DNA of 51,637 bases, taken from the NCBI GenBank assembly GCA_003152695.1, contig PMAT01000047.1, positions 1 to 51,637 on the forward strand, written 5' to 3'. The notes beneath the pieces are model-generated. The model searched no databases. It saw nothing but the letters and a program-made list of their open reading frames with translations, and was not told where the DNA came from. Both the position numbers and the translations under genes were made by a program. Positions 10,413-42,242 of the stretch are shown one piece after another (within the stretch, counting starts at the first letter, position 1; each line of letters begins with the position of its first letter). The DNA comes from Acidobacteriaceae bacterium. Lineage in GTDB: Bacteria; Acidobacteriota; Terriglobia; Terriglobales; Acidobacteriaceae.

Positions 10413-12187
<1,775 letters not shown>

Positions 12188-18943: not shown

Positions 18944-18985
18944 TGCAGCAGTTTCTTACCTGACAAGGATGGGGTCAACTCCGGC

Positions 18986-21762: not shown

Positions 21763-21768
21763 GACAGT

Positions 21769-22473: not shown

Positions 22474-23225
22474 TTCGCGTCTCCTTCCGCCGGAGATTCA
22501 CCGGAATAGATTCCGCCGTCCTTGCGAATCCGCCAGAAGTGGATGGCGATTAACACAACCGCGGCAAAGGGCAGAATTACGCAGTGCAGAACGTAGAACC
22601 GGAGCAGCGCGTTGGCGTTCACGGCCGTTCCGCCCAGCATCAGGAACCGCATCTTGGCGCCTATCACCGGCACCGCCGAGGCAATGTTGCTGCCGACCGT
22701 CACCGCCCAGAAAGCCAGTTGGTCCCACGGCAGCAGGTAGCCCGTATAACTCAGCAGCAGCGTCATCAGAAGCAGCACAACCCCAATCACCCAGTTGAAC
22801 TCGCGCGGCGGCCGATAGGCCCCGCGATAGAACACCTTGAACATGTGCGCGAACACCAGGAAAACCATGGCGTGGGCCGACCAGCGATGCAGGTTGCGCA
22901 GAAACACGCCTGACGAGACCACGAACTGCAGGTCTTTCATGTCGGCGTACGCCTGCGGGACCGAGGGATGGTAATACAGCATCAGCAGGATGCCGGTGAT
23001 TACAAGAATGAGAAACGTCCCGAAGGTCAGCGCACCCAAATACCACGTCGCACTAAACTCCAGCGTGCGCTTACGCGCCTTGACCGAGAACAAGTGCAGA
23101 AAGACGTTTTGCTGCACAGTTAACGCACGGTGCAGGTTGCTCTCACCGGTGCCGCTGCGAAAGATGGAGCGCCATATGCGGTTCTCGCGAACCTGGTCAG
23201 CGAGGCGATCGATGGTGTTGGCCAC
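22470..23225 (-). CDS. Cytochrome b6-like subunit
   Basis: A 251-aa membrane protein with four helices. Heme-b ligands are paired as His-x13-His in [18 protein letters not shown] and His-x14-His in [19 protein letters not shown], the spacing of b6-type rather than bc1-type proteins. The segment [23 protein letters not shown] matches the quinol-site helix region of the family. By eye, the Cys that binds the extra heme cn in cyanobacterial b6 is replaced by Tyr ([10 protein letters not shown]). It is two bases from the Rieske gene. It oxidises menaquinol or a related quinol in the inner membrane (family knowledge). Confidence 0.93.
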
Positions 23226-23227
23226 GG

Positions 23228-23722
23228 CTAGACCCTCACCAGTTGTTTGATGGCGACAGCGTTGGAGCGGTCAACCATCAAGTTGCCATCGTCGCTGAGC
23301 CACATGCGCAGCCAGGGAAGCGGCCTGGGCGCGGGGCCGGCGATCTTCACGCCGTCCTTGTTGAACTTGCTGCCGTGGCAGGGGCACGCGATGATGCCGA
23401 GGTCCGGCTTATAGGCCGTCATGCAACCCAGGTGAGTACAGATGGCCGAGAGCGCGAAGAATCCCTCCGCCGTGCGCACCACGTAGATCGCTGTCGCCGG
23501 ATCGAGCGTAACCGAGTCAGGAGGATAGTGGTCGGGCTTTCCGGCATCCACAATCGGCGACGGTTCGTAGAGCACGTTCGGCGACAGGTACTCATAAGAG
23601 AAGGCAGCCGTGCCCAAGACGGCCACCGCAACCGAGCCAACTCCGACCTTGACGAAAAACTGCCGCCGGCTCATCTCCTCCGGGGTATCGGGTAAAGCCG
23701 CGGGTTTTGGTTCCTCAGGCAT
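23228..23722 (-). CDS. Rieske iron-sulfur protein of the b/c complex
   Basis: A 164-aa Rieske protein. Tat signal-anchor: Arg19-Arg20-Gln-Phe-Phe then a hydrophobic helix to about residue 45. Cluster ligands are Cys95, His97, Cys113 and His116, with Cys100 and Cys115 as the bridging disulfide (ICTHLGC and [10 protein letters not shown]). The short form and the GSKFNKDG box are typical of respiratory quinol:cytochrome complexes. It is immediately upstream of the cytochrome b6 gene and downstream of the GltD-like gene in the same operon. Confidence 0.95.
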
Positions 23723-23737
23723 AAATCCTCAATATCG

Positions 23738-25708
23738 TCATTTCGCCGGCGCCGGCGCCGCAGGCAGCTTGGGCCCATCGAAGCTTTGAATGGTGATGAG
23801 CCCGGTCGGCTCGGTCGCCACAAAGTTATAAGACTCCATGGTGATGGTGTTGGCGGGACAGCGCAGCGCGCACAGACCGCAGCGGATGCAGCGGGTCTCG
23901 TCCTTCAACATCGCAGTTCCGGTGATGCTGCCTAATTCTGCCGGCTGTAAGTCTGTCAACTGGAAGCCGAAAAACTCTGGATTGTTCGCCAGGGCATCAA
24001 TCGTGTCGGGCTCGAACTGAATCCGGTCCAGCGGAACCAACTCCAGGCAATTCTCAGGACAGACATCCACGCAGCCGCCGCACAGCACGCAGTCAGTGCC
24101 GTCGTGTTCGTTGCCTTCGAGAATGGTGTTGACATAACACTTCAGGCAGCGCTGCGCCTCGGCCATCGCTTCCTGTTCGCTGTAAACCAGTTCGACCTCG
24201 GTCATGCCGGTGCGGCGATCGAGCGGCAACATGGGAATGGCCTGGCGGTGGATGTTCATATAATCCACTGCCATTTGCCAGCGGTCGAGGACTTGCACTT
24301 CAATCTGCGGCTCGGGATGCTCGGTCCCGCGAAGGTACTCATCAATACCCACCGCCGCGCGTTTGCCGTCGCCCACGCTGTCAATGATGAGGCGCGGTCC
24401 GAATGCGCAATCGCCGCCGGCGAATACGCCGGGGGCCGAGGTCATCAAATTGTCGCGATTTACGTTGATGAGGCCGCGAGGCGAGACCAGCACGCCATCC
24501 TCGGGCCGCAGAAACTCGAGGTTGGGCGCCTGCCCGATGGAAAGAATGATGGTGTCGCACTCAAACTGGGTGTCGCTGTTGTCGTAGAACGCAGGATTGA
24601 ATCGGTGGTTTTCGTCGAAGACATATTTTGTCTTCAGGCATTCCAGGCCAACGACTTTGCCGTCACGTCCGAGGACCCGCTTGGGCCCAAAACCCGGATG
24701 CATGATGATGCCTTCGGTCTCCGCCTCTTCGATTTCCTCCAGCGCGGCCGGCATTTCGTGGCGCTGCTCCAGGCAGACGAGGCCAACCTCCTGAGCGCCC
24801 ATGCGCAGGGCCGACAGCGAGATGTCCATCATCTCGTGCGCGGCAACGGTTTGCACATTCTCTTCCGAGGGCGTTATCTCACCGGGCGAATCATGCTGGC
24901 GCAGCACCTCGCGCGCAGCCGAGCGCGCGACGTCCATGGCGACATTGCCGCCGCCGATCACGATTACTTTCTTCCCGATGGTGAACTTGTAGCCAAGATT
25001 GACGTTCAACAGAAATTCGATGCCGCGATGCACGCCATCGAGATCAACGCCCGGGATCGAGAGGTCGCGGCTGCGATGTGCGCCAACTGCGATCAATACA
25101 GCATCGAAGCCCTGGCGCCTCAGTTCGCCCACGGTGAAGTCGCGCCCGGCGGCGGCGTTCAGGCGCAGCGTGATGTCGCCCGTCTCCAGGATCTCGCGTA
25201 CCTGCGCCTCCACCACACTTCGCGGCAGACGATACTCCGGGATGCCGAGGTACAACATTCCTCCGGCGACGGGTGACGCTTCGAAGATGGTTACCGAGTA
25301 GCCCATCAAGGCGAGATCGTGCGCGGCTGAGAGGCCGACCGGACCGCCGCCGATCACCGCGACCTTGAAGGGAAGTTTGCCGGCCGGCTTGGTGCTGGGC
25401 GCAACCGGATGACGCGACTCGGGACCGTGCCGCTCGGTCAGGAACCGCTTCAGGGCACGAATGGAAATCGGGCGGTCGATTTGGCCGCGACGGCACGCGG
25501 TCTCGCAAGGGTGAGCGCAGACGCGTCCGCAGATGCTGGCCATGGGATTCGGATCGCGCGCAATACGATAGGCCTCTTCGAAGCGCCCCTCTGCGATCAG
25601 CGTCACGTAGCGGCCGGCATTAGTGTGCGCGGGACACGCCATCATGCAGGGGAAATTGGTGTTCAGCCATTCCCGATCGACCTTCTTGTTAGCGAAGCGA
25701 ATCTGCAT
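23738..25708 (-). CDS. NAD(P)H-FAD oxidoreductase with ferredoxin domains, GltD/DsrL-like
   Basis: A 656-aa cytoplasmic iron-sulfur flavoprotein. The N-terminal cluster-binding region has Cys21, Cys25, Cys60, Cys64, Cys68 and Cys72. An FAD-binding GGGPVGLSAA follows at about 119-128, and an NAD(P)H-binding GGGNVAMDVA near 253-262. The C-terminus holds Cys-Leu-Lys-Cys and two [4Fe-4S] ferredoxin motifs (CVLCGGCVDVCP and CIRCGLCALRCP). This resembles glutamate synthase small subunit and DsrL/NfnB-type electron-transfer proteins, with added ferredoxin domains. There is no gltB nearby. Fifteen bases separate it from the Rieske gene. It probably links NAD(P)H or ferredoxin to the membrane complex (inference). 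Confidence 0.9.
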   Translation of the reverse strand: MQIRFANKKVDREWLNTNFPCMMACPAHTNAGRYVTLIAEGRFEEAYRIARDPNPMASICGRVCAHPCETACRRGQIDRPISIRALKRFLTERHGPESRHPVAPSTKPAGKLPFKVAVIGGGPVGLSAAHDLALMGYSVTIFEASPVAGGMLYLGIPEYRLPRSVVEAQVREILETGDITLRLNAAAGRDFTVGELRRQGFDAVLIAVGAHRSRDLSIPGVDLDGVHRGIEFLLNVNLGYKFTIGKKVIVIGGGNVAMDVARSAAREVLRQHDSPGEITPSEENVQTVAAHEMMDISLSALRMGAQEVGLVCLEQRHEMPAALEEIEEAETEGIIMHPGFGPKRVLGRDGKVVGLECLKTKYVFDENHRFNPAFYDNSDTQFECDTIILSIGQAPNLEFLRPEDGVLVSPRGLINVNRDNLMTSAPGVFAGGDCAFGPRLIIDSVGDGKRAAVGIDEYLRGTEHPEPQIEVQVLDRWQMAVDYMNIHRQAIPMLPLDRRTGMTEVELVYSEQEAMAEAQRCLKCYVNTILEGNEHDGTDCVLCGGCVDVCPENCLELVPLDRIQFEPDTIDALANNPEFFGFQLTDLQPAELGSITGTAMLKDETRCIRCGLCALRCPANTITMESYNFVATEPTGLITIQSFDGPKLPAAPAPAK

Positions 25709-25783
25709 CAGCCCCCTGTGGAGACGAGGTGCGCGCGGCGATAACTGGAAGAAGGGAGGAGACCCATCCTCCCTTCGTACCGT

Positions 25784-26359
25784 TTACTTCGAGAGGGTAA
25801 AGTCGGCGTTGCCGGTGCCGGCAACATCAACCGACTTACTCTGCTGCTTGGTGCCTTCATGCCAGGCAACCACGTTGTACTTGCCATCGGGAACGTTCTC
25901 GATCTTGTAGTTTCCGCTGGCGTCAGTCTCGGCAAAGTACGGCGTCGGGCTGACAACGATGTAGCCCGCCATTTCCGGGTGCACGTTGCACAGCAATGAC
26001 ACCACACCGGGGTTATCGAACTTAAATGCCTTCTTCTCGCCCTTGGGCCAGGTGCCGAGGTTGTGGCCTAGCTTCTTGTTGCCGCTGATGGAGGGCCAGA
26101 AAACATTGTGCTGAACGGTATCGCTGTTCTGGAACTCGACCGTGGTTCCCACCTGAACCGCCATAACGTGCGGATTGAACATCAGACCCTTCTGGTCCAT
26201 AACCGGCTGCTTCGACGGCGCCGGAAACGTTTTGCCCTGGATGGTGTCCACATAGACGATGGACTTCCCGGGCGATACTTTGCCTTCGATGGTGCCAGCC
26301 ACAGCGGTAGCTGCGACGGCGGTGACCAATAAAACCGTAACTAGAAAACTGCGCATCAT
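25784..26359 (-). CDS. Periplasmic blue-copper-like protein with carboxypeptidase-regulatory tail
   Basis: A 191-aa exported protein. The signal peptide is MMRSFLVTVLLVTAVAATAVAG. A cupredoxin fold is indicated by the type-1 copper ligand set: His in VQHNVFW, then Cys-Asn-Val-His-Pro-Glu-Met in VSLLCNVHPEMAG. The C-terminal 55 residues form a small beta domain like carboxypeptidase-regulatory domains (DASGNYKIENVPDGKYNVVAW). Start at 26359 is set by AGGA eight bases upstream. Within the operon it could be the mobile carrier between the complex and the outer-membrane heme protein, an inference from order and ligands. Confidence 0.85.
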   Translation of the reverse strand: MMRSFLVTVLLVTAVAATAVAGTIEGKVSPGKSIVYVDTIQGKTFPAPSKQPVMDQKGLMFNPHVMAVQVGTTVEFQNSDTVQHNVFWPSISGNKKLGHNLGTWPKGEKKAFKFDNPGVVSLLCNVHPEMAGYIVVSPTPYFAETDASGNYKIENVPDGKYNVVAWHEGTKQQSKSVDVAGTGNADFTLSK

Positions 26360-26402
26360 GAACATTTCCTTTCGTTGTTGTGCTTCTCTCAGGTTCAAGC
26401 TG

Positions 26403-28061
26403 TTAATACACGAATTCTAAACCTGCGACTGCCGTATTGGTATGGAACGGGTTCAGGGCCACCGGGAGACCGGTGACGGGATTTGTCCCGAATATGACCG
26501 ACTGCGACGGACGGAACTGGTACTCAAACGACGCCTTGATGTTGGCGTGCATCAGGAACTGCACCCCCGGAGTAACCCGGTTTCGCGTTACACTGGCCGC
26601 CCCATTGAAGGGAGAGCCGGTGAATCCGCCCGCCGTTAGGCCGTTCACGTAGTCCGAGTTGGAGTTTACGGCGTCATAGCGCATCAGCACCATCATCCAA
26701 GGATAAGCGAGCCATTCGACGTCGGCGAAGCCTCCGCTAAATGTAGCCGCCCGACCGGAAATGAACCCGACGGGTAGCGGCATAGTGCCCACCGGCAAGC
26801 CAATCGGCACGCCATTGGCGTCGATCGGCAGCAGGTTGGAGTCGTGCCCGTACATGTACAGGGCATTGAACTGCAGGCAGCAGCGGTAGTTGAAAGTCAT
26901 GTTGCCGCCGACCCGGTAAAACGGCTCGCGCGCGGTGATGACGGTCGGCACGCCATCGGCGGTGGCCCCCGATAGCCGCTGCACCGAACGTCCATAGAAG
27001 TAATAGCTGCCGAGGTTCAAATAGGTGTGATCGCGCGGTCCGGTGGGGCCGGCTGCCTGGATGGCGTTACGGCTTTCCTTGTCGCGCTCGAGGTTAAACC
27101 GGTAACTGAAGGAGGCGTAGAGGTCCTTGAAGTTCGCATCTGAAGCCACGCCCAGCCCGCCATTATTGCTGCCAGTGGCTTGGGGAACGTAGGGAATGCC
27201 CGAGTTAGCGTCCTGTCCGAATCCACTGGTGTTCTGGTCGATGAAGGCAAGCGAGTAGTAGTAGCCTCCGGTGTGCAGCCCCCCGCTCAACTCGACACCC
27301 TTGCCCGCATCCGCCAGGGTGAATTGGTTATTGACGAACTGCTGCGGGAAGGCCGGATTCACGGCCCCGATATTGGCCTGGGTGTAGATGTCGTAGGGAC
27401 TGATCCAAATGCTGCGGGCCTGGGTAAAGGGCAGTTCCAGTTCAAACTGGCCGACGCGAAGACTCAGCAAGTTCTGGGGCAGTTTCAGGAACCGGCCGAC
27501 ATTGACGAACTTGAGATAGGCATCGCCGAGTCCGCCGTTGGCGTTGGCGCCGCTGACACTGATGTCGTCGTCCACCCAAAATGCCATGTCACTGCCGAAA
27601 TTGCCAGCGGTAAAGATGCTGAATAGCCCAGTCTGGAAGTCAGTGGTCGGAGTATACGGCGCTACTGTTCCAGGCGGCAGCAACTGATTGAACTTCGAGC
27701 TGCTGGTCCCCGTGTACTGAAAGTATTGGTTATAGCGCAGCCCGATCGGCGGCATACCGGGTATGACGCCCGGCCAGACGGCCTTGGGCCACAGTTCTGC
27801 GTTGGCTGGCGCTCCCAGCATTACCGGCGGAATCTTGATCATCGACTCGTCGTCCTTGGGAAACTTGAAGCCCGCATCCTTGAAGGCTTTTCCGAAGTCG
27901 TTCAGCTTGGGGAAGTCAACGTGACAGGTGCTGCAACTGGTGCCATACATGCGTGAAAAAGCGGGGATGGCGTAGCTGGTGCTCGAAAATACGATAGCCA
28001 GTACCATCGGCATCAGAAAGAGGCTTGTCTTACGAAACGCGTTGCAAGGTCGCCGTTGCAT
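26403..28061 (-). CDS. Outer-membrane porin fused to an N-terminal heme c site
   Basis: A 552-aa exported protein. After a signal peptide (to about Ala31) comes a single heme motif Cys43-Ser-Thr-Cys-His47 inside the segment FSRMYGTSCSTCHVDFPKLN. The rest is rich in alternating aromatic/polar strands ending in a terminal aromatic (GLEFVY), as in beta-barrel porins. The N-terminal pattern recurs in uncharacterised cytochrome-porin fusions of several phyla. GGGAGGA before ATG 28061 supports the start, although it lies 32 bases inside the upstream gene. The fusion is a natural candidate for electron transfer across the outer membrane. Confidence 0.85.
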   Translation of the reverse strand: MQRRPCNAFRKTSLFLMPMVLAIVFSSTSYAIPAFSRMYGTSCSTCHVDFPKLNDFGKAFKDAGFKFPKDDESMIKIPPVMLGAPANAELWPKAVWPGVIPGMPPIGLRYNQYFQYTGTSSSKFNQLLPPGTVAPYTPTTDFQTGLFSIFTAGNFGSDMAFWVDDDISVSGANANGGLGDAYLKFVNVGRFLKLPQNLLSLRVGQFELELPFTQARSIWISPYDIYTQANIGAVNPAFPQQFVNNQFTLADAGKGVELSGGLHTGGYYYSLAFIDQNTSGFGQDANSGIPYVPQATGSNNGGLGVASDANFKDLYASFSYRFNLERDKESRNAIQAAGPTGPRDHTYLNLGSYYFYGRSVQRLSGATADGVPTVITAREPFYRVGGNMTFNYRCCLQFNALYMYGHDSNLLPIDANGVPIGLPVGTMPLPVGFISGRAATFSGGFADVEWLAYPWMMVLMRYDAVNSNSDYVNGLTAGGFTGSPFNGAASVTRNRVTPGVQFLMHANIKASFEYQFRPSQSVIFGTNPVTGLPVALNPFHTNTAVAGLEFVY

Positions 28062-29289
28062 CCTTAGTCCTCCCTTTAGGTTGTGTCGTTACGGTCAGGC
28101 TGCGCGATGGTCTTGCCGCCGACAGTCTTTGAAACTCATGTACCGTGAATCCGAGACCGCCTGCCATCAGCAGGATTATGAACGATGCAACCCCGGCCAG
28201 CAAGAGGACGGTTTGCCGGTCAGCATCTCCGCCTTGTGGCTGAACTTCCGGTATCTGGGGAACCGACGATGCGCCGCCATTCATGGGAGGCGTTCCTCCG
28301 CCTGCTTGCGCTGGGTGCGTCAGTGCGCTGATGGTGCCGAGACCAGCCGATTGCGAAGGCGGATAGAGGGTCAGGTAGAGATACACATCCGCAGCTTCGT
28401 CCTCACTTAGGTAATAGAAAACCGGCATTCGGCCGCGGTAGAGCATGGGCGACGCGCCCATCAGGACCGGAGCTCCGCGAGTAACTTTCCGGATGAACTC
28501 CGGCCGACTCTTGCGCATGGTGAGAGTACTCAGCGGTGGAATCGCTCCATTCCAAATCTGTTGGGGACCAGGGTCGGGCCCGGTTGCGGCGTGACAAGTG
28601 TGACAAGTGGATTTCACAATGTGCTCGCCCACGCGGATTCGCGATTCCTTCACCGCCAGCTGCTCCCTCCCTGCGCCGGGAACTGCGGCCAGCTGTTTCA
28701 GATAGGCAAGAAGCGAATTAACCTCGGCTTGGTTCAGGTGAGGAAACGACGGCATATTCTCGCCGCCATTGTGGAGTCGTTGCAACAATGCCGTTTTGGA
28801 CTGCTGCGCCAGCTTGACGGCGTCCGCCCGGCCGATCTCCATTCCTGTCACCTTCATTCGTGCCATCACCAGCTCGACCGAGGTCGCCCGCACTGGGTTA
28901 ATGACCGAGTTGATTTCAGGCGGGGCCCCTTCGCCGGATTCGCCGTGGCATCCCTGGCAATTCATGCGGTACAGGTCGGAGCCATGCAGCGTCAGAGTTT
29001 GCGATGCCACAGCGGACGGCCAGTCGCGTTGCCACTGGGGAGCTGCCTCTCCTGAGGCCGGCGCAGGCGGGCCTAAGCGCCACGTCTTGCCCATGCTGGT
29101 TTCGTCGAACCGCCGATTCAGATGGGTGAGCCAGCTTTCGCCCGCTACTGCCGTCACCCCAGCCTGTTCACTCACGCTTCCCTTGTGTGCCGCTGTGCCC
29201 TGGCGATCTACCTGCGCATAAGCGCAGCGCCCGGCCAGCAACAGCAATGTGGACATCGCGACGCACCGCGATGTCTTCAGGAACTGCAT
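28030..29289 (-). CDS. Diheme c-type cytochrome with C-terminal membrane anchor
   Basis: First gene of the operon, 419 aa. Signal peptide to about Ala25. Two cytochrome c domains: Cys111-Gln-Gly-Cys-His115 with a Met candidate in GGENMPSFPHL, and Cys229-His-Thr-Cys-His233 with a distal candidate in RGRMPVFYYLSEDEAADV. A Pro/Gly-rich linker leads to a transmembrane helix near residues 362-383 (TVLLLAGVASFIILLMAGGLGF) and a basic cytoplasmic tail. A bound diheme protein of this design could take electrons from the b/c complex or feed a copper protein. The next gene begins inside its 3-prime end. Confidence 0.88.
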   Translation of the reverse strand: MQFLKTSRCVAMSTLLLLAGRCAYAQVDRQGTAAHKGSVSEQAGVTAVAGESWLTHLNRRFDETSMGKTWRLGPPAPASGEAAPQWQRDWPSAVASQTLTLHGSDLYRMNCQGCHGESGEGAPPEINSVINPVRATSVELVMARMKVTGMEIGRADAVKLAQQSKTALLQRLHNGGENMPSFPHLNQAEVNSLLAYLKQLAAVPGAGREQLAVKESRIRVGEHIVKSTCHTCHAATGPDPGPQQIWNGAIPPLSTLTMRKSRPEFIRKVTRGAPVLMGASPMLYRGRMPVFYYLSEDEAADVYLYLTLYPPSQSAGLGTISALTHPAQAGGGTPPMNGGASSVPQIPEVQPQGGDADRQTVLLLAGVASFIILLMAGGLGFTVHEFQRLSAARPSRSLTVTTQPKGRTKDATATLQRVS

Positions 29290-29352
29290 ACTGTCCCCCG
29301 TGCTGCTCAGAACTCGATCTCAATCCGAGCCTACGGGGATGCAACAGTGAGC

Positions 29353-29380
29353 TTGTCATGGAGTTGTCAGCTTCCTGTCA
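29353..29380 (-). promoter_or_regulatory. Three TGTCA direct repeats, 11-bp period
   Basis: TTGTCA (29353-29358), TTGTCA (29364-29369) and CTGTCA (29375-29380), each 11 bases apart, about one helical turn. Possible stacked regulator half-sites 64 bases upstream of the diheme cytochrome start. Confidence 0.4.
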
Positions 29381-29604
29381 ACTGTTACTGATCATGTGAA
29401 CTCCCTTGACACTCTTGCTCGCCGGCAAAATGGTGACTGCAAGTGCCGGCAGTACCAGAGCCCCACGGACCGTACGGACGGCCATGCCATGGGGCGCCGA
29501 TCCTCACGCAAGAAATTGTGATCAAGATAGTCCTAGAAGCCTCTGTTGTCCACACACCTGCCGCCGATAGAGAAGGAGTATTCATTTTGGAGCAACCTCG
29601 TCGC

Positions 29605-29620
29605 AGTGATGCAGATCACA
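29605..29620 (-). promoter_or_regulatory. CRP/FNR-like palindrome upstream of the cytochrome operon
   Basis: AGTGAT-GCAG-ATCACA, with the same half-sites (and the same preceding GC on the plus strand) as the site at 15910-15925. Its centre is about 42 bases from the start point predicted by the minus-strand -10 candidate AATACT. Confidence 0.5.
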
Positions 29621-29661
29621 GCGCCCGGTGACGAAGGCGGCGCCGCACGGAGCTTCGGGTC

Positions 29662-32199
29662 TTAGTACAGGAAGTCGAAATCGAACAGGAACTTGCGATC
29701 GTAATTACCGAAAAATGTTCCGTACAGGGGATCGGCGAAGTTGGAATGCACTTCCAGCGGATTGAAATGGTTGGTCAAGTTGCGCACCGTCAGCGACAGC
29801 CGCACCGCGTGCTGCAGATTCACCTGCACATCTTTGGATACGCGCATATCCGCCGAGAAGTAATTCGGGTAGCGGTTTTGAGGGCCGATCACCGGCACAT
29901 ACTGCTGATAGAGATTCGTCGGCTGATAGGGAAATCCGTTGCGGTACTCGATGTGCGGCGACAACGTGATTTTCTTCGGCAGTTTACCGTAGCTTCCCCA
30001 GAGCAGGAAGCGATTGGGTATTTCGCTGGGCAAGCTGGCAATCAGATTGGGTTGAATCACCGGCGAAGGAAAATTTCCCAGGTAGGAGCCGGCGTCGTTG
30101 ACGTCACCGTAGGCATACTGCCGCACGTAGGAGAAGAAGAACTGACGCGGCGAGGCGGACCCGATGCGGGCGGTGAACTCAGCCTGCCGAGTTTGCGCCC
30201 ATCCAGAAGAGTTCAGCGCGAAGGCAGGCTGGTTCTGAATGACCTCGGGTTGCAGGGTGATCATGTCCTGCTCGTGGCTTTGCAGGTACTTGGCGCGGAC
30301 CATCAACCAGCGCGTCACCGTTCGTTCCAATTCCAGGTTCCAAGCGGTGCTGTATGGAGCGAAGTTCCCACTCTTTAGCTTGCGATCGATGAAGGGAAAG
30401 TTCGATTCTGCCGCCTGACCGGTGATGTTGAGATAGCGGACCGGCGGCCCGACCGGCAGGCCCAGCGCGTTGTAAGTGGTGATGACTTGATCGGGGTAGC
30501 TGTTGAAGGCATAGATATCCAGCGGCACTGAGTCATAAAAGATGCCGATGCCACCGCGGAGCACGGTTTTGCCGGACTTGCCCGGCGACCACGCCAAGCC
30601 GGTGCGCGGCGCCGCCCGCATCGTCGAGGTAATGGTCTGGCCTTCCAGACGAAGCCCGATATCAACTGCAAGGTGCGAGTTCAGTATCCAGTGATCTTGA
30701 GCGTAAACTGCCGGTTCCGTATCGGCGACCTGGTAGGGCCTGCCGCCGACATAATCTATCCTCTGCAGCAGTCGTCCACTGGCATCCTGCAAGGTCACAG
30801 GATTACCCAGGAAGTGGCCCTCGTTTTCACTGTGCCCAATTACAGAGCCGATCTGAAAAATGTGATCGCCATGGAAGTGCAAAGTGCGTGGGGTCCACTG
30901 CTCCATCCAGGCAACGCGGGTGGCGCTGCGGGAGTTGTAGCTGAAATAATTTCCCTGGTTGCCCACCGGCGTAAGGACCATGTTCGCGTTGCCCTGTGGC
31001 GAGACTGCGCTGGAAACCCCGGTGCCGGCGAAGGTGCTTTGCAGCAGGCCGTCGCCGATCTGCCAGCGATGGGTCAGCGTCGCGGTGGTTTCGTGGAAAT
31101 TCGCATCCGGCGTTACCGGCTGAGGATTGAAGTAGTCGAGGCCGGCATATTGCAAGCTGTGGGGCGCGAAATGGAGGCTCGCGGTCACGGTCTGCCTGGC
31201 AGACAGAATGGCATCAAGCTGGGTGAACGAATTGTAGGCGCTTGATCGGGTGAGATTTTCCGGATAGGGCAGCGTCATTACTTCCTGATTGTTGAAGAGA
31301 TACTGAAATCCCTCAACGAAATAAAGCTTGTCCTTGACCAGAGGCCCGCTCAGATTAAAGCGCGGAGAGGCATCGGCGAGTCCCTCCAGGTGTCCGCTGC
31401 GGATGCGGAAATCGGGAAAGGGATCGTTCAAGCTGTAATCCCATTTATCGCCACCGCGGCGCGTCTCGGCTGAAACCACACCCGCGGTGAACTTTCCATA
31501 TTGCGCTAGGTACGGCATCTCGGCGACTTCCACAGTCTGCACGCTATCAATGGGTACGCTGAGGCCGAAGCTGCCGGTGGCGGGATCGGTAACATCGACG
31601 GAGTTGACCAGCAAGGCGCTGTGGTTCTCCCCCAACCCCGCGATGCGCACGCTGCCATCCTTGGCGCGCACGATGCCGGGTATGAGAGGCAGCGCGTCGG
31701 CTAGCGTGGCGGGGCGCAGGGCGCCGTTCTTGGCCTGCGCGGTGGGCAGGGTCGCCGGACTGCCCGCGGTTTCCGTGATCGGATTGGAGGCTTCGCCTTT
31801 GACTTCGACACTCTGCTCGCTCAGCGCCGCTTCACTCAAGACGACGTCAATGTCCTGAGCGGCGTTGCTGTTGCTGACCTCCAAGGTGGTTTCATTCGGC
31901 AGGTAACCTCTCTTTTGAACGCGCAGCGAATAACTGGCAGCGCCGTTGACCGCGAGCGTTACTTTTCCCGTGGCACTAGTGGTGGAGGTGCTTATGAGCG
32001 CGCCGCTGGAGCGCATCTCCACCGTCGCATCGGGAACAGGCTGGTTGTTTTCGTCGATCACCGAGAGATTGATCGCGTAGGTCCGAGCGTCGCTGGGCGG
32101 GGAGGCCCAGAGAAAACCGCAGAGCGGCAGCAGCCACACGAGCAGAACCATGCTCTTGAGGATTGCGCGAACTACAAGCGATCGTGATGAAGTGGTCAT
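29662..32199 (-). CDS. TonB-dependent receptor with carboxypeptidase-regulatory domain
   Basis: An outer-membrane active transporter (845 aa from ATG 32199). Signal peptide, then a carboxypeptidase-regulatory-like domain at about residues 40-120 (INLSVIDENNQPVPDATVEMRS). A plug domain follows (TLADALPLIPGIVRAKDGSVRIAG, LLVNSVDVTDPATG), and a large beta-barrel ends with the C-terminal aromatic FLFDFDFLY. This is the common receptor form in Acidobacteriota and Bacteroidota. The frame opens at a TTG further upstream (32274); the ATG directly before the hydrophobic signal was preferred. Substrate unknown. It lies downstream of the ABC importer genes in the same direction but has its own promoter region. 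Confidence 0.88.
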   Translation of the reverse strand: MTTSSRSLVVRAILKSMVLLVWLLPLCGFLWASPPSDARTYAINLSVIDENNQPVPDATVEMRSSGALISTSTTSATGKVTLAVNGAASYSLRVQKRGYLPNETTLEVSNSNAAQDIDVVLSEAALSEQSVEVKGEASNPITETAGSPATLPTAQAKNGALRPATLADALPLIPGIVRAKDGSVRIAGLGENHSALLVNSVDVTDPATGSFGLSVPIDSVQTVEVAEMPYLAQYGKFTAGVVSAETRRGGDKWDYSLNDPFPDFRIRSGHLEGLADASPRFNLSGPLVKDKLYFVEGFQYLFNNQEVMTLPYPENLTRSSAYNSFTQLDAILSARQTVTASLHFAPHSLQYAGLDYFNPQPVTPDANFHETTATLTHRWQIGDGLLQSTFAGTGVSSAVSPQGNANMVLTPVGNQGNYFSYNSRSATRVAWMEQWTPRTLHFHGDHIFQIGSVIGHSENEGHFLGNPVTLQDASGRLLQRIDYVGGRPYQVADTEPAVYAQDHWILNSHLAVDIGLRLEGQTITSTMRAAPRTGLAWSPGKSGKTVLRGGIGIFYDSVPLDIYAFNSYPDQVITTYNALGLPVGPPVRYLNITGQAAESNFPFIDRKLKSGNFAPYSTAWNLELERTVTRWLMVRAKYLQSHEQDMITLQPEVIQNQPAFALNSSGWAQTRQAEFTARIGSASPRQFFFSYVRQYAYGDVNDAGSYLGNFPSPVIQPNLIASLPSEIPNRFLLWGSYGKLPKKITLSPHIEYRNGFPYQPTNLYQQYVPVIGPQNRYPNYFSADMRVSKDVQVNLQHAVRLSLTVRNLTNHFNPLEVHSNFADPLYGTFFGNYDRKFLFDFDFLY

Positions 32200-32613
32200 T
32201 CTTCGAGAGCTCAACGTGGCCCCTCGGCAATACTGGAATGTCGCCTTAGAATTATGCTTGTGGTGGGCTGACAAGCATCCATCTCTTTCATGTTCATGGC
32301 GAACTTGATGATTGAATTCTACCTGCTAGGCGCTAGCGTTGCCAATGACATGAACAGAATGTCATCGGGATACTACGGTAATTCCATTTTCGTTACCTAA
32401 TCTGTAAACCCATGTCTCCATCATCAGTTGCAAGGAAAATGCGTCACCGTACAGGGTGCGTCCTTCGAGGAAAACTCTAGTGTGCTGGTGAGGCTGTGCG
32501 GTCTGTGGCGATGCGACCTACGCTGGAGATACTGATGGTCACCGTTTTCTCGACTTTCAAAAGGAACCACTGCCAACTGGCAACCGGCCCCCATCAGATG
32601 AGAATATGGTTTT
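32200..32613. other. Intergenic region between receptor and ABC permease
   Basis: About 410 bases without a supported gene. It contains the receptor promoter and operator described at 32316-32365. Nothing recognisable lies in 32400-32613, and no terminator hairpin is evident after the permease gene. Confidence 0.5.
32316..32365 (-). promoter_or_regulatory. Putative promoter and palindromic operator of the TonB receptor
   Basis: On the minus strand, TTGGCA (32345-32340) and TAGAAT (32321-32316) are separated by 18 bases, a good sigma70 fit. Directly against the -35 is the inverted repeat ATGACAT-N7-ATGTCAT (32345-32365), the usual position for an activator site. The TGACA/TGTCA half-site also occurs in the cytochrome operon leader. 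Confidence 0.55.
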
Positions 32614-36914: not shown

Positions 36915-37121
36915 GCCAGCTAAGAAAACCTCGCTTAAGCAAAACAGGCTTGGATGACAATACCGGGCAAATTTTTACCAACGACTTCGACCTGAATACT
37001 CCGGTTCCAGTGCCCACAGGTGGAGGCAACGGCGGCTTGTCATGTTCACAATCCATCGTGCGTTACATCACTGAAAACTTCTCGCGACTGGTGCTAGAAG
37101 TACTAAATGGGGAGGTGTTTC

Positions 37122-38393
37122 ATGCCCCGTCCAGGGAATCCCCTCGCTGTTTCCACCGCGTTCACGCTGCCCATTTTCCCGGAGTGCGAAGCCCGCATCG
37201 ATGCCCTGCCGCCGCTGGCCATTCCCCGGTCATCGGCCCTTCTCAGCGAGGTGCCGGATCGCCGACTGTTCCTCAAAATGCTTGCGCTTCCATGCGCGGC
37301 GGCCTGCGTCATGGCCCTTGCCCGTGACTCCATTGCCGTCCCCGTGCGAGCGTGGGCTGCGGCAGAGGAAGACGATTCCCGCTTCCGGATCGAGGCGCGG
37401 TTCTACGAGAAGCTGCCCGGGAAGATGGTTCGCTGCAAACTGTGTCCGCGCGAGTGCGTGGTCGAGGACCGCAACCGCGGCTATTGCCGGGTCCGTGAAA
37501 ACCGGGGCGGAACCTATTACACGCTGGTCCACTCGCGGGTTGTCGCCGCCCACGTCGATCCCATCGAGAAGAAGCCCTTCTTTCATTTTCTTCCGGGCAA
37601 GCAGGCGTTTTCCGTCGCCACCGCGGGCTGCAACGTGAACTGCAAGTTCTGCCAGAACTGGGAGATTTCGCAGGCCAGACCGGAAGACCTGCCCGCAAGA
37701 TACCTGCCCCCGAAAGACCTGGCGACGTTGGCTAAAGATAATCAGTGTGCCGCGGTGGCCTTCACCTACAGCGAGCCCACGATTTTCAACGAGTACGTGA
37801 CCGACGCTGCGGAATCCGCACGCGACTCCGGGTTGAAGAGCATCGTCGTGACCAACGGCTTCATCCAGCAGGCGCCCCTGAAGCGCACCTGCCAGCGTGT
37901 GGATGGCATCAAGATTGATCTCAAAGCTTACTCGCAAGACTATTACCGCGATGTCGTGCGCGGTCAGCTTCAGCCGGTCCTAGATAACTTAATCACCATT
38001 CGCAAACAGGGAAAGTGGCTGGAGATCGTGTATCTCACGGTGCCGACTCTCAACGACCGCGACGCCGAGATTCGCGATATGTCGCGTTGGATTAAAACGG
38101 AGTTGGGACCTGATGTCCCCATACATTTCACGCGCTTCATGCCGCTCTATCTTTTGAAGAACCTGCCCCCGACTCCGGTGCCGACGCTGGAGCGCCTCAA
38201 AGCGGTGGCCGATGCGGAAGGTCTGCAATATGTGTATATCGGCAATGTGCCGGGGCATCCTGCAGAGAACACGTATTGTCCCAAATGCCACAGCCTTGTC
38301 ATCGAACGGGCGGGTTTCACCATCAAGCAGATGAACCTGCACAAAGGCAAGTGCCCGAAGTGCCAGCATCCGATCCCGGGCGTGTGGAGTTGA
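37122..38393 (+). CDS. amrS: AmmeMemoRadiSam system radical SAM enzyme with Tat-like signal
   Basis: A 423-aa radical-SAM protein. The [4Fe-4S]/SAM motif is Cys170-Asn-Val-Asn-Cys174-Lys-Phe-Cys177, after a Cys-rich segment with Cys105, Cys108, Cys112 and Cys122 typical of the AmmeMemoRadiSam and pyruvate-formate-lyase-activase-like subgroup. The C-terminus ends in a zinc-ribbon (CPKCHS and CPKCQH). Unusually, residues 47-78 (DRRLFLKMLALPCAAACVMALA) look like a Tat signal, which would send the protein to the periplasm. ATG 37122 follows GGGGAGG; a GTG just before the twin Arg is a possible internal start. It is two bases from the Memo-AMMECR1 fusion gene. Confidence 0.9.
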   Translation: MPRPGNPLAVSTAFTLPIFPECEARIDALPPLAIPRSSALLSEVPDRRLFLKMLALPCAAACVMALARDSIAVPVRAWAAAEEDDSRFRIEARFYEKLPGKMVRCKLCPRECVVEDRNRGYCRVRENRGGTYYTLVHSRVVAAHVDPIEKKPFFHFLPGKQAFSVATAGCNVNCKFCQNWEISQARPEDLPARYLPPKDLATLAKDNQCAAVAFTYSEPTIFNEYVTDAAESARDSGLKSIVVTNGFIQQAPLKRTCQRVDGIKIDLKAYSQDYYRDVVRGQLQPVLDNLITIRKQGKWLEIVYLTVPTLNDRDAEIRDMSRWIKTELGPDVPIHFTRFMPLYLLKNLPPTPVPTLERLKAVADAEGLQYVYIGNVPGHPAENTYCPKCHSLVIERAGFTIKQMNLHKGKCPKCQHPIPGVWS

Positions 38394-38395
38394 AC

Positions 38396-39934
38396 ATGAT
38401 GAGGCGACCAAAGAGCATATTCCTGGCGCTGATTGTGGCGTTCCTGTTGGCGGCCAGCGCCGCCGGGACCGCGCAAGAAAAAGTGCGGCAAGCGGGGATA
38501 GCGGGAGCATTCTATCCGGCCAATCCCGACGAATTGAGCAAGATGGTGGATGGATTTCTGGCTAAAGCCCAGGTTCCGTCCATCAAGGAACCGCTGATTG
38601 CGTTGATTGCTCCCCACGCCGGATATCCGTACTCCGGCGGCGTCGCAGGCCACAGCTACGCGCTGCTCAAGGACCGCAAGTTTCACCGCGTAGTGATCAT
38701 CGCGCCCTCGCACTACGAGGCGTTCCCCTTCTCCGCGGTTTACGACGGAGACGCATACGTCACTCCTCTGGGTAGAATCCCGGTGGACAAGGCCTTTGCG
38801 GCGGCGCTGGTTAAGCAAAGCCCTTCGATCCGCTTATCGGGCCGCGGACATGACCGTTCGGGAGAACAGGCTGAACATTCTGTGGAAGTCCAGCTTCCGT
38901 TCTTACAGCGGACAATTGCCCAATTCCAACTGGTTCCCATCATCATGGGTGATCAAAGCTACGAGGCAAGTCGCGCCCTTGGCGTGGCGCTGGCTAAGTT
39001 GATCCACGACTCCGACACGCTCATCGTCGCCAGTTCCGATCTCTCGCATTATCATCCCTATGACGAGGCATCGACCATCGACCACAACACGCTGCGCGCT
39101 ATCGAGGCGTGGGACTATTTCAACCTCTCGCGGAACCTGCAGGCGCGGGTGTGGGAGGCCTGCGGTGGCGGCCCGATTGTAGCCGCCATGATCGCGGCCG
39201 AGCGCCTGGGTGCGAACCGTGCCGAGTTGCTGAAGTACGCCAACTCGGGCGACGTGACCGGCGATCGCTCGCGCGTGGTGGGCTACAGTGCTTTCGCTCT
39301 GTACAAGGCCGCGCCCACCAACTCCGTCGCTCACCCCTTTACCCTGACCTCCAAAGAGAAACAGGAACTTCTGAGCGTGGCGCGGAAGTCGGTGGAGAGC
39401 GCAGTGCGTGAGCGCAAGGCCTATAAGCCGCCAGCCGGATCGCCGGCACTGCAGCAGGACCGCGGCGCCTTCGTAACCATCACCAAGAATGGAGAACTCC
39501 GCGGGTGCATTGGATACGTATCCCCCATGCAGCCGCTGCTCGAAACGGTTGGCGAGGTTGCTGCGCTGGCGGCATTGCGAGATCCCCGCTTCCCTCCGGT
39601 TGTACCAGCGGAGTTGGCAGAGTTGCAATACGAGGTCTCCGTCCTGTCTCCCTTCCGGCGCGTGCTCGATGTCCGGGAGATACATGTCGGCCAGCATGGC
39701 CTTCTGATGAAAAAGGGCAACCATGAAGGCGTGCTGCTGCCGCAGGTGCCCATTGACGCGGGATGGGACCGCAAGACCTTTCTGGAAGAGACGGCGAGGA
39801 AGGCAGGGCTGCCTGCTGCGGCGTGGAAGGATGACGATACCGACATCTTCTTGTTTTCCGCGCTGGTGTTCAGCGAAGGCAAGCCGCTGGAGAGCATCAC
39901 ACCGGAAGCATCTTCTCCCGTGAAACGGCCATGA
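38396..39934 (+). CDS. AmmeMemoRadiSam proteins B and A fused (Memo-AMMECR1), exported
   Basis: A 512-aa fusion. A signal peptide (MMRRPKSIFLALIVAFLLAA then SAAGTA) precedes a Memo-like domain at about residues 35-305, with its metal-site segments APHAGYPYSGG, PSHYEAF, EQAEHSVEVQLPFL and SSDLSHYHPYDEA. An AMMECR1 domain follows at about 325-505 (LRGCIGYVSPMQPLLETV, ELQYEVSVLSPF). Memo relatives are non-heme-iron dioxygenase-like; the joint role of this three-part system is not established. The ATG directly follows the radical-SAM gene. Its 3-prime end overlaps the opposite-strand synthase-like gene by 38 bases. Confidence 0.9.
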   Translation: MMRRPKSIFLALIVAFLLAASAAGTAQEKVRQAGIAGAFYPANPDELSKMVDGFLAKAQVPSIKEPLIALIAPHAGYPYSGGVAGHSYALLKDRKFHRVVIIAPSHYEAFPFSAVYDGDAYVTPLGRIPVDKAFAAALVKQSPSIRLSGRGHDRSGEQAEHSVEVQLPFLQRTIAQFQLVPIIMGDQSYEASRALGVALAKLIHDSDTLIVASSDLSHYHPYDEASTIDHNTLRAIEAWDYFNLSRNLQARVWEACGGGPIVAAMIAAERLGANRAELLKYANSGDVTGDRSRVVGYSAFALYKAAPTNSVAHPFTLTSKEKQELLSVARKSVESAVRERKAYKPPAGSPALQQDRGAFVTITKNGELRGCIGYVSPMQPLLETVGEVAALAALRDPRFPPVVPAELAELQYEVSVLSPFRRVLDVREIHVGQHGLLMKKGNHEGVLLPQVPIDAGWDRKTFLEETARKAGLPAAAWKDDDTDIFLFSALVFSEGKPLESITPEASSPVKRP

Positions 39935-42242
39935 ATGTCAGCAGGGCTGTCGCCAGATTCAATACCAGAATCAGCAGGGCGGCTTTTAGGAATCCGAAAA
40001 GCGGTACCAGACAGGCGCTCAGTACAACTGCACCGATACACGCTCCCAGCAGATCGACGGCATACAGAGTTCCGGTGTTCTGCGGGGACGCATCTTTCCG
40101 GTCAGAGAAGAAGAGGTTGCTGGCCAAGGGGAATTGGTAGCCGCCTAACATCCCGCAGAGCAAGGCGACTCCGGGAAAAAGAATTTCCCCGACCAGGAAG
40201 AGCCCGGCCCGGCTGTTGGTTCGCGCGCAGGTCAGAAAGAACCCGTACAGTAACACCGGCGATAGGGCCGCGATCACCTGGACGGTGGCCAGGGCGCGCA
40301 GCTTGGTGCTATTGTCCCCGGCTCGCCGGCCAATGCTTCGCAATCCCAGCCAACTGCCCAGGGCCATGCCCATCATCACCGCCGCAACCAGCAGTGCCAG
40401 TTGCTGATAAACATAGCCGTAGATCGCCTGAAAACCCAATAGCAGCAGGACCTCCAAGGCCATCAGCGTGAACCCCATGGCGCCGACGCAGCCTGCCACA
40501 GACACGCGGTTAAGCTTCTTTGGCCTCAACACCGCAAGAATGAGTAGCCCGGTCACTACCAGCGCAGTCAGTCCCGATAGGATCCAGCGAAACTGAATGC
40601 GCGCCATGCCCGTGAAGATTTCACGATAGCGGCCATTGAACTGGGTGCTCCAAAGCGCTATATCGAAGTAGTAGGCGACCGGCGCAAAATCACGGTTGAC
40701 GGGAGTTTCCGGCCGGGGCCGAATCTGTTCCGCCATTTCGAGCATGCGATCGGGGGCCATGCGGAAGGGGAGGTAATACTCGCGCACATAGCTGGTCTCC
40801 AGGTGGCGGGACTCCAGCCTTTGCAGCAAGTCATTGGCACGAGCCGTCAGAGTGCCCGCTTGCGTGGCGGCGAAGAAGTACGCGGTGTCTCCAGGAATTG
40901 TAGTGACCTCGGGAAATACCTCCTGCAAGCTCCGGTTAATGCACCGCAGGAAACTCCCCAGTGTCGGCGTGATGTAGTTCTCCGATGCTCGCAGTTGGAA
41001 AGAGAAAATGCCGCCGGGATTCAACTTCGCGGCAGCTTCGCGGAAGAACTCGACGGTGAAGAAGCGGTTCAATTGCGCGGTCTGCGGCTCCGGCAGGTTG
41101 AGGATAATAACGTCAAATGTCTCTGCGGTGCTCTTTAGAAATAAACGGCCATCGGTAGCGCGCAGGTGCACACGCGGCTCGTGCTGCAGCATGACCATCT
41201 CGGCGGTGAAGTAACTCTGCCCAAGCTCAAAGATTTTGGGATCCAGTTCGACCATATCGATGCGTTCGATCAAGGGATGCTTCAGGGCTTCGGCGGCGCT
41301 CCCATTCAGTCCCCCGCCGATCAACAACACGCTTCTCGGGGCCCGATGCTGCAGGAGCGCGTAATGAACGGATTCTTCCGCAGCCTGAGGGTCAGGCACA
41401 GTAAAGAGCACGAGACCGTTATCGAGAAGCGTGCGGCTGCTGTCCGTTTCCACTACCGCTAGATTTCCGTATGCCGAATTTTGGCTGGTCAGGAGATGAA
41501 GTCCCTGCCAGAGCCGCCTAAGTGAAAGCGTTTCCATCCAAGGCGCGCCGAATGGAAACAGCCCGGCGACGAAAACCGCAAATATTGCCGTGTACGCAAC
41601 CTTGCGCCAGACAGGCCCGCGAAAAATCAAGCTGGCGGCCGCTAGCAGGTTCAATAACCCGAGGCAAAATGCAATTTGGAAGGACGTGTAATGGCGGACC
41701 AACATCAGGCTGGCGAGCAGGCCACCGATGCCTGACCCAAATGCTTCCAGAAGATAAACGGATCCCGTAGCCCTCGCCGGCACAGCCCCGGTTTCCTGAC
41801 AGACCAGGCGGCTGCCCGCTGCAAACATTCCTCCCGAGAACAGGCAGAACGGGCATAGAACCACAAGGGCGGTAAGGAACATCGGCCACGGCCCCAGGAT
41901 TTCGCCGGGAACATTGAGAAAAATTCCTTTGCTGCTTCGGACTGCGAAGATGGTCAAGGGCAGCGCTAACGCAAGGAGCGCCTGCAAACCGGCCATAGTT
42001 TTGCGCGGATCAGCGAACCATGCGGTCTTCCGGCCGAAGAGGCTGCTACCGATACCCGTCCAGAACAACCAACTGGCAAGCAAGAGTCCCAGGGAGATCT
42101 CGTTGCCATAAAACACCACCAGCAGCTCCCGCATGAGCAAGATCTGGACAACGGTCGCCGTGAATCCGATCAGCAACAGCAACGGCCGGAGCCGCCACAT
42201 GCTCTGCCATGACGACTGACGTTGCTGGGATGGGATCACCAT
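39897..42242 (-). CDS. Membrane-fused spermidine synthase-like protein
   Basis: A 781-aa protein with three parts: an N-terminal block of about six helices (residues 15-230), a soluble methyltransferase-fold domain (about 250-470), and a C-terminal block of about seven helices (to residue 775). The central domain shows the polyamine-synthase pattern: LLIGGGLNGSAAEALKHPLIERIDMVELDPKIFELGQSYF and ATDGRLFLKST. Such fusions are common, and their substrates are mostly unproven. It converges with the Memo-AMMECR1 gene with a 38-base overlap. No ribosome-binding site is clear at 42242; ATG 42200 (MWRLRPLLL) is an alternative. Confidence 0.85.
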   Translation of the reverse strand: MVIPSQQRQSSWQSMWRLRPLLLLIGFTATVVQILLMRELLVVFYGNEISLGLLLASWLFWTGIGSSLFGRKTAWFADPRKTMAGLQALLALALPLTIFAVRSSKGIFLNVPGEILGPWPMFLTALVVLCPFCLFSGGMFAAGSRLVCQETGAVPARATGSVYLLEAFGSGIGGLLASLMLVRHYTSFQIAFCLGLLNLLAAASLIFRGPVWRKVAYTAIFAVFVAGLFPFGAPWMETLSLRRLWQGLHLLTSQNSAYGNLAVVETDSSRTLLDNGLVLFTVPDPQAAEESVHYALLQHRAPRSVLLIGGGLNGSAAEALKHPLIERIDMVELDPKIFELGQSYFTAEMVMLQHEPRVHLRATDGRLFLKSTAETFDVIILNLPEPQTAQLNRFFTVEFFREAAAKLNPGGIFSFQLRASENYITPTLGSFLRCINRSLQEVFPEVTTIPGDTAYFFAATQAGTLTARANDLLQRLESRHLETSYVREYYLPFRMAPDRMLEMAEQIRPRPETPVNRDFAPVAYYFDIALWSTQFNGRYREIFTGMARIQFRWILSGLTALVVTGLLILAVLRPKKLNRVSVAGCVGAMGFTLMALEVLLLLGFQAIYGYVYQQLALLVAAVMMGMALGSWLGLRSIGRRAGDNSTKLRALATVQVIAALSPVLLYGFFLTCARTNSRAGLFLVGEILFPGVALLCGMLGGYQFPLASNLFFSDRKDASPQNTGTLYAVDLLGACIGAVVLSACLVPLFGFLKAALLILVLNLATALLTFMAVSREKMLPV

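Follow-up and report, generated by a model that had tools for sequence, protein, structure and literature searches.

The 51,637-nucleotide stretch of Acidobacteriaceae DNA analysed here (contig PMAT01000047.1, hereafter the window) probably encodes an extracytoplasmic form of the AmmeMemoRadiSam system. Radical-SAM enzymes and SAM are regarded as cytoplasmic. Judging from its genes, the bacterium seems to export a whole radical-SAM modification system and to retain a second copy inside. An earlier note on this DNA had pointed to neighbouring export signals on two of the proteins; the observation is confirmed as real, and it is larger than that note had it. Sequence comparison establishes the two predicted signals and their conservation, the intact catalytic residues, the presence of two sets in one genome and the co-inheritance of the enzyme with a membrane protein that we call “SPEM.”

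The enzyme gene is located at 37122–38393 on the plus strand, within an open frame of 428 aa (37107–38393) whose first ATG is at 37107. The ATG at 37122, the start adopted in the earlier note, follows a Shine-Dalgarno-like GGAGGTG (37111–37117) at a spacing of 4 nt. The product matches the NCBIfam model TIGR04337 with 363.5 bits (cut-off 220) and the radical-SAM superfamily profile PF04055 with 57.9 bits. Among solved structures, only pyruvate formate-lyase activating enzyme (3c8f, 8fo0) is matched by sequence, and distantly (profile E 1.8e-12). The cluster motif CNVNCKFC of the window enzyme (37629–37652, plus strand), which contains C175, C179, and C182 in the numbering of the 428-aa frame, lines up with that of 3c8f, and the SAM-site segments also align, whereas the additional N- and C-terminal cysteine motifs and the export signal distinguish the window enzyme from this relative.

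AmmeMemoRadiSam radical-SAM enzymes fall into three clades, A, B, and C, and the window enzyme is a member of clade B. In the tree, the clade-B rows come together as a single group with a support of 92/84, slightly under the 95/80 at which the tool awards a star, which somewhat weakens the extracytoplasmic reading. Every one of the 87 clade-B rows keeps the cluster cysteines, the E-P, and, within the DLK segment, the D and the K. These cluster and SAM-site residues are common to all three clades and are as conserved in B as in the signal-less clades. Such complete retention despite wide divergence (the window enzyme and L039, both of clade B, share 41% identity) argues against the proposal that the protein is exported to serve in iron-sulfur or metal binding and is no longer a radical-SAM enzyme. 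That proposal, which we consider quite unlikely, draws on the four N-terminal and four C-terminal cysteines kept in all three clades, which could bind other metals, and on the fact that neither a reductant nor a periplasmic SAM source was found in this analysis.

The predicted Tat signal (37260–37322, plus strand) spans the twin-arginine motif RRLFLK at 37260–37277 and the hydrophobic stretch. After RRLFLK come one Met, the segment LALPCAAACVMALA, a stretch rich in alanine, and the acidic EEDD. The protein has the N-terminal twin-arginine motif followed by a hydrophobic stretch that marks Tat substrates, as the earlier note had read it. The host Tat translocase is represented in the same genome by a TatC match of 238.3 bits. 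A survey for Tat-bearing radical-SAM genes, which the note had suggested, was made over the 30 Radical_SAM matches of this genome, and the window gene has the top Tat score (2.27). Two others exceed 0.8 (L157, 1.06; L143, 0.93), and by our judgement these look like segments of folded domains.

Signals were scored by in-house rules combining motif and hydropathy, with thresholds fixed after a first look. A cruder Tat label, RRx[FLIMVYW] anywhere upstream, was dropped; because it wrongly flagged rows of clades A and C (L010, L020, L024), a hydrophobicity of at least 0.8, a value picked after viewing the data, was additionally required. By this rule, 81 of the 87 rows of clade B have the Tat signal, vs. 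0 of 14 in clade A and 1 of 16 in clade C, with L118 and L065 left out of the counts as duplicates of L034 and L035. In the single clade-C row, L024, the first start codon comes after the RR, so that clades A and C contain no translatable Tat signal. Shuffled clade-B extensions satisfy the rule in 3.4% of cases. In a sample taken across phyla, the signal is found in 39 of the 40 B rows scored out of 67 (the single miss is L210) and in 0 of 20 rows scored from among the non-B ones; this sample is not wholly independent of the named loci, since L202 at least seems to duplicate L076. Going by record titles, the signal-bearing named loci span ten phylum-level groups. Orthologues lacking the signal, which the note had regarded as a possible refutation, do exist and weaken the extracytoplasmic reading, but they are few: L081, L085, and L090 among the 87 rows show no sign of contig truncation, and L079 is cut off by a contig end.

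The signal might be an annotation artefact, with translation starting downstream to give a cytoplasmic enzyme. In the window gene, three ATGs and one GTG lie between the RR and the first cysteine motif; the window alone therefore leaves room for an internal start, which the note had also raised, and orthologues can exclude it. Indeed, 14 of the 81 Tat-bearing clade-B rows and 8 of the 39 rows of the phylum sample have no ATG, GTG, or TTG in that interval. In L064, the sole start codon stands two codons before the RR, one codon past the stop codon of the preceding gene. Together with the occurrence of the signal in ten named groups and in none of the 20 non-B rows, these cases make the artefact scarcely credible. 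Upstream of the RR, the alternative start GTG 37251 is three codons 5′ of the motif, which is therefore retained from either this start or ATG 37122.

Alternatively, the twin-arginine segment might be a membrane anchor that keeps the catalytic domain on the cytoplasmic side, since in some members no evident cleavage site is seen, by eye, beyond the hydrophobic stretch, and the DUF362 partners treated below often have no signals. We consider this highly unlikely: in 68 of the 81 Tat-bearing clade-B rows, the charge is lower after the hydrophobic stretch than before it, a bias for N-in/C-out; the Memo partner has a separate signal; and in an alignment of nine rows, the two arginines and the Phe two positions further along never change, whereas the hydrophobic stretch does.

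The gene for this partner, the fused Memo-AMMECR1 protein, is located at 38396–39934 on the plus strand and begins 2 nt past the stop of the enzyme gene. Its product (MMRRPKSIFLALIVAFLLAASAAGTAQEK) combines, behind an N-terminal Sec-type signal, a Memo domain (38486–39298, residues 31–301; TIGR04336, 280 bits against a cut-off of 26) and an AMMECR1 domain (39365–39871, residues 324–492; TIGR04335, 172.7 bits against 99). The Sec-type signal claimed in the earlier note is recovered in the window gene and in 48 of 49 clade-B loci with a Memo frame, vs. 0 of 28 scored stand-alone Memos, at a threshold of 1.7 chosen after seeing the data and with a score that is the best over several possible starts, of which the stand-alone Memos, with their shorter extensions, offer fewer. 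The stand-alone set is 29 taken from a longer match list, one of which (L165) is unscored because its first match row is a fragment. In some relatives, the Memo partner resembles a lipoprotein. There are also cases that weaken the extracytoplasmic reading: a Memo ORF is absent from the fetched stretch in 38 of the 87 clade-B loci; the fused Memo of G059 has no signal by score; and G016 pairs a signal-bearing fused Memo with a clade-C enzyme, its only TIGR04337 match, and has no SPEM.

SPEM is encoded on the minus strand at 39897–42242, convergent with the Memo-AMMECR1 gene and overlapping its end. Profiles, a predicted model, and fold comparisons describe it as an MFS-like membrane protein of 14 helices, between the seventh and eighth of which a spermidine-synthase-like domain (Rossmann, with a SAM motif; residues ~249–506, 40725–41498, minus strand) is inserted; the model, with 7+7 helices, has a pLDDT of 91.5. 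Neither this gene nor the second, signal-less set of the same genome was mentioned in the earlier note. The model superimposes on spermidine synthase 3anx (Z 30.3, 293 aligned, rmsd 3.1), and the helices on VMAT2 8wvg (Z 26.1, 353 aligned, rmsd 3.7) and 6zgs (Z 23.4, 354 aligned). The MFS match comes from this later comparison; a Foldseek search with the whole model gave only spermidine/thermospermine-synthase-type chains among the matches listed. The fused MFS/spermidine synthase model NF037959 is matched above its cut-off (59 bits vs. 40), and the membrane spermidine-synthase homologues NF002956/PRK03612 over both helices and domain with 163 bits, far under the cut-off of 472. In every one of 55 sequences, charge bias places the domain on the outer side, and a cytoplasmic placement was dropped on this basis.

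In spermidine synthase, according to PMC10349129, the D or E of GxG(D/E)G binds decarboxylated SAM. The window SPEM has L at this place. Of the 53 sequences that have a residue at this position, 47 lack the acid, and the other six show E within a region that aligns poorly. Fungal NHMT is a seven-transmembrane spermidine-synthase-like methyltransferase in the ER whose targets are secreted proteins, and the issue of limited SAM in the ER is likewise raised by its authors (PMC10349129). So described, and likened by description rather than by sequence, NHMT shares with SPEM the order of seven helices followed by a spermidine-synthase-like domain and the replacement of the acid of GxG(D/E)G, whereas SPEM has seven additional helices (PMC10349129).

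SPEM, the Memo partner, and DUF362 are the top three recurrent neighbours of 88 clade-B loci, in a survey whose 23-locus cluster and smaller clusters are only partly annotated. The clade-B enzyme and SPEM occur together in 64 of 247 genomes, and only one of the pair occurs in 6. The clade-B limit in this count, 433 bits, was set after seeing the list; a limit of 413 bits would add G080 only, which has SPEM. The five lowest TIGR04337 matches above the cut-off (G014, G019, G051, G052, and G056) were counted as clade C by score. Among 61 relatives, six genomes in which no clade-B enzyme was read match the SPEM profile weakly, at E 1e-31 to 1e-37; these matches are taken as other membrane spermidine-synthase homologues.

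DUF362, the commonest neighbour, is located upstream of the enzyme in other loci, but the genome from which the window comes gave no match to it. Its structure matches with E <= 1e-3 are LarA-like nickel-pincer enzymes or lactate/malate racemases in 11 of 12 cases, at 11–16% identity and a query TM of at most 0.46; the twelfth is 4nar, a Thermotoga protein. By rule, DUF362 has a Tat signal in 31 of 68 loci and none in 37, with a call in L100 that looks spurious and one in L058 lost to the threshold; the signal-less loci also weaken the extracytoplasmic reading. The same genome contains a second enzyme, Memo, and AMMECR1, all without signals. The window set matches all three AmmeMemoRadiSam models (TIGR04335/04336/04337) above cut-off and shares its catalytic residues with the signal-less clades, whereas the Tat-bearing enzyme, the Memo-AMMECR1 fusion behind a Sec-type signal, and the company of SPEM set it apart.

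As for electron supply, radical-SAM chemistry requires SAM and a strong reductant. The search for a paired reductase or reductant advised in the earlier note found none among the recurrent, partly annotated neighbours of the 88 clade-B loci, and this weakens the extracytoplasmic reading. In L088 (Aminicenantes), Fer4, CCG, and 2-oxoacid oxidoreductase genes are located downstream; the neighbour clusters to which they belong are small, with 7 to 9 loci each. The note had interpreted the two signals as an extracytoplasmic pathway perhaps fed by the cytochrome operon. Its first half is supported by the signals of orthologues, which predict export of both proteins; the second half is unsupported, since the cytochrome cluster lies elsewhere in the window (17.7–29.3 kb, minus strand), with outer-membrane receptor and ABC-transporter genes between it and the enzyme, and the commonest identified neighbours are not cytochromes.

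In the extracytoplasmic version that we favour, the radical-SAM enzyme would fold and take up its clusters inside and then leave by Tat, to be freed or retained on the outer face of the inner membrane, where the fused Memo-AMMECR1, leaving via Sec, would join it. SPEM would display its SAM-motif domain on the same outer face, and its MFS-type helices could carry SAM, or a substrate, across the membrane. The combined system may modify a small molecule or an exported protein outside the cytoplasm, alongside the signal-less set in the same cell. Both the export of the proteins and the orientation of SPEM are what we infer from sequence and model, and what is said of SAM supply, reductant, and substrate is pure conjecture.

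Tat exports folded, cofactor-loaded proteins, and we know of no dedicated SAM exporter here, SPEM aside; the enzyme might therefore be exported with SAM prebound and act once or a few times, making a periplasmic SAM supply unnecessary. This seems unlikely to us, because co-inheritance with SPEM, whose SAM motif is kept and predicted to face outward, suggests a continuing SAM need outside. A fuller form of the extracytoplasmic reading, which we offer tentatively as possible, is that a complete SAM-fuelled radical pathway operates outside the cytoplasm in many phyla, in which SPEM would carry or pump SAM to its own domain and to the enzyme, together with the exported Memo-AMMECR1 and often the putatively LarA-like DUF362.

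The key prior work is that of Burroughs and colleagues in 2019 (J Biol Chem), which may already mention the signals or these neighbours. Content of Burroughs et al. (2019) is relayed in PMC7159879 and PMC7694686. In the open-licence literature, nothing on exported AmmeMemoRadiSam proteins is found among the matches listed.

If true, a conserved exported branch accompanied by an outward-facing SAM-motif protein would mean that the periplasm contains SAM, a low-potential electron donor, or both, and either possibility can be put to the test. Memo and AMMECR1, long unexplained and present also in humans, would gain a defined setting, and because one cell has one set inside and one outside, the chemistry that the two sets share would be directly comparable. 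The find poses a testable puzzle on chemistry in the cell envelope.

The AmmeMemoRadiSam radical-SAM enzyme of the window (428 aa) lies in an open frame at 37107-38393 on the forward strand and matches TIGR04337 with 363.5 bits (cut-off 220). ATG 37122, the start chosen in the earlier note, has GGAGGTG 4 nt upstream, and GTG 37251 stands three codons before the twin arginine. Two bases past the enzyme stop opens a further forward frame (38396-39934) which, by profile matches, encodes Memo and AMMECR1 domains behind the signal-like MMRRPKSIFLALIVAFLLAASAAGTAQEK. Convergent with it runs a reverse-strand gene (39897-42242) whose membrane-protein product, here called SPEM, carries a spermidine-synthase-like domain. 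Another radical-SAM enzyme, the thiamin synthase ThiC, is encoded at 10454-12187 (forward strand, 620.8 bits). The same genome holds a further TIGR04337 enzyme of 361 aa on contig C121, a stand-alone Memo on C35 and a stand-alone AMMECR1 on C40, all scored without a signal and spread over three separate contigs; the set in the window is therefore an extra, exported-looking one.

An enzyme tree of 117 rows, drawn from 61 related genomes and 80 named loci of a genome scan, falls into three groups, A (14 rows), C (16) and B (87). Clade B (support 92/84) includes the window enzyme, and the paralogue from its own genome belongs to clade A. When a Tat signal was scored as RRx[FLIMVYW] with a hydrophobic stretch behind it, 81 of the 87 B rows passed (83 with a looser motif), as did 0/14 in A and 1/16 in C, and 3.4% of shuffled B extensions. 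The lone pass in clade C has its twin arginine upstream of any start codon. In 14 B rows there is no start codon from the twin arginine to the first cysteine motif, and in locus L064 the sole start codon lies two codons before the twin arginine, one codon past the stop of the upstream gene. Judged by the titles of their records, signal-bearing named B loci include members of Acidobacteriota, Aminicenantes, Zixibacteria, Calditrichota, Latescibacterota, KSB1, Poribacteria, Planctomycetes, Myxococcota and Omnitrophota. A second sample covered 247 genomes of the phylum, with at least 433 bits on a clade-B profile taken as a clade-B call, which gave 67 rows in 66 genomes; 40 of these and 20 lower-scoring rows were fetched, and the signal was present in 39/40 (at least one of the 40 duplicating a named locus) versus 0/20. 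The export signal which the earlier note had seen on the enzyme thus recurs in its orthologues, and the predicted Tat signal is a property of one enzyme clade, B.

Six B rows fail the strict rule: L079 is cut by a contig end, the looser motif picks up L101 and L111, and a search of L081, L085 and L090 found no twin-arginine signal. In these last three the signal is apparently lost and the enzymes may have returned inside; all three are without a DUF362 neighbour, and the Memo partner still scores a signal in L081 and L090 and has a weak one in L085.

Judging from its residues, the clade B enzyme looks catalytically competent: none of the 87 rows has lost any of the three cluster cysteines, either residue of the E-P pair, the D or K of the DLK segment, or any of four cysteines near the N-terminus, and four C-terminal cysteines are kept in all 86 rows long enough to include them. 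PFL-activating enzymes are the only solved relatives detected by sequence.

A Memo ORF lies within the fetched stretch in 49 of 87 B loci, in most of which AMMECR1 shares its frame. The signal proposed for this partner was borne out, being scored in 48 of the 49 as against 0 of 28 scorable stand-alone Memos (29 in all) of related genomes; the fused Memo of G059, scored without a signal, is an exception. The Memo partner of clade-B loci is accordingly predicted from its signals to be likewise exported. A second exception is related genome G016, which has a signal-bearing fused Memo-AMMECR1 (L196, contig C84), yet its sole TIGR04337 match is of clade C, and neither a clade-B enzyme nor SPEM was found there.

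By hydropathy of 55 sequences (the window and 54 others), the spermidine-synthase-like domain of SPEM stands between two blocks of seven helices each, and an AlphaFold model (pLDDT 91.5, pTM 0.91) agrees with this layout. In structure comparison spermidine synthases match the soluble domain (Z 30.3), and MFS proteins match the helices (VMAT2, Z 26.1; 6zgs, Z 23.4). Alternating loops of 115 and 67 residues differ in charge (mean Lys+Arg 20.7 versus 5.5), a bias that would put the domain outside the membrane in 55/55 sequences. The SAM motifs GGGxxG, ELDP and DGR are mostly kept, and the acid used by spermidine synthases for decarboxylated SAM is absent in 47/53. NHMT, a fungal seven-transmembrane methyltransferase that is found in the ER and acts on secreted enzymes, shows the same acid loss (PMC10349129).

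Among the 61 relatives, strong SPEM matches occur in exactly the nine genomes with read B enzymes, and weak ones in six further genomes. In the 247-genome sample, spanning 30 families, 64 genomes have both B enzyme and SPEM, 2 the enzyme alone, 4 SPEM alone and 177 neither (Fisher p 1.2e-51, relatedness ignored), and 46 of the 64 pairs are at most 5 kb apart. In many Acidobacteriota SPEM sits downstream in convergent orientation, in others it points the same way as the enzyme gene, and in L039 it lies upstream; the link has therefore outlasted rearrangement. In a genome of the same genus, SPEM is matched in two pieces (G002:C30:17156-19333), perhaps by a frame break.

Of 86 B loci examined, 67 have a DUF362 gene upstream on the same strand, at most 600 nt from the enzyme cysteine motif; a search of the window's own genome found no match. 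DUF362 scores a Tat signal of its own in 31/68, chiefly outside Aminicenantes and Zixibacteria. Signal-less DUF362 beside a Tat-bearing enzyme (L096:4773-5693, L107:3726-4634, L121:5084-6001) could be carried out in complex as a Tat "hitchhiker" or kept inside. For a DUF362 model from L059:4860-5876 and relatives (pLDDT 91.6), 11 of 12 structure matches with E up to 1e-3 are LarA-like nickel-pincer enzymes or racemases (TM at most 0.46), which offers a clue to how this uncharacterised family folds.

The earlier suggestion that cytochromes feed the exported system is left without support: no conserved redox partner was found among the identified neighbours of B loci, and the cytochrome cluster of the window (17.7-29.3 kb, reverse strand) is separated from the enzyme by genes for ABC transporters and for an outer-membrane receptor. 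Besides several c-type cytochromes, the stretch 17684-32274 (reverse strand) encodes proteins of the cytochrome b/bc type, one resembling plastocyanin and an outer-membrane receptor of the TonB type.

The signals, their conservation, the intact sites and the co-inheritance are all read directly in the sequences; export of enzyme and partner and the orientation of SPEM are predictions. Most likely, the folded, cluster-loaded enzyme would exit through the Tat route and Memo-AMMECR1 through the Sec route, to work together with SPEM at the outer face; SAM might be supplied by SPEM transport or leave bound to the enzyme. An exported system is absent from the matches listed in a mainly open-licence literature, with most subscription papers outside it. 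The AmmeMemoRadiSam system itself is known, and the proposed exported form is a variant of it.
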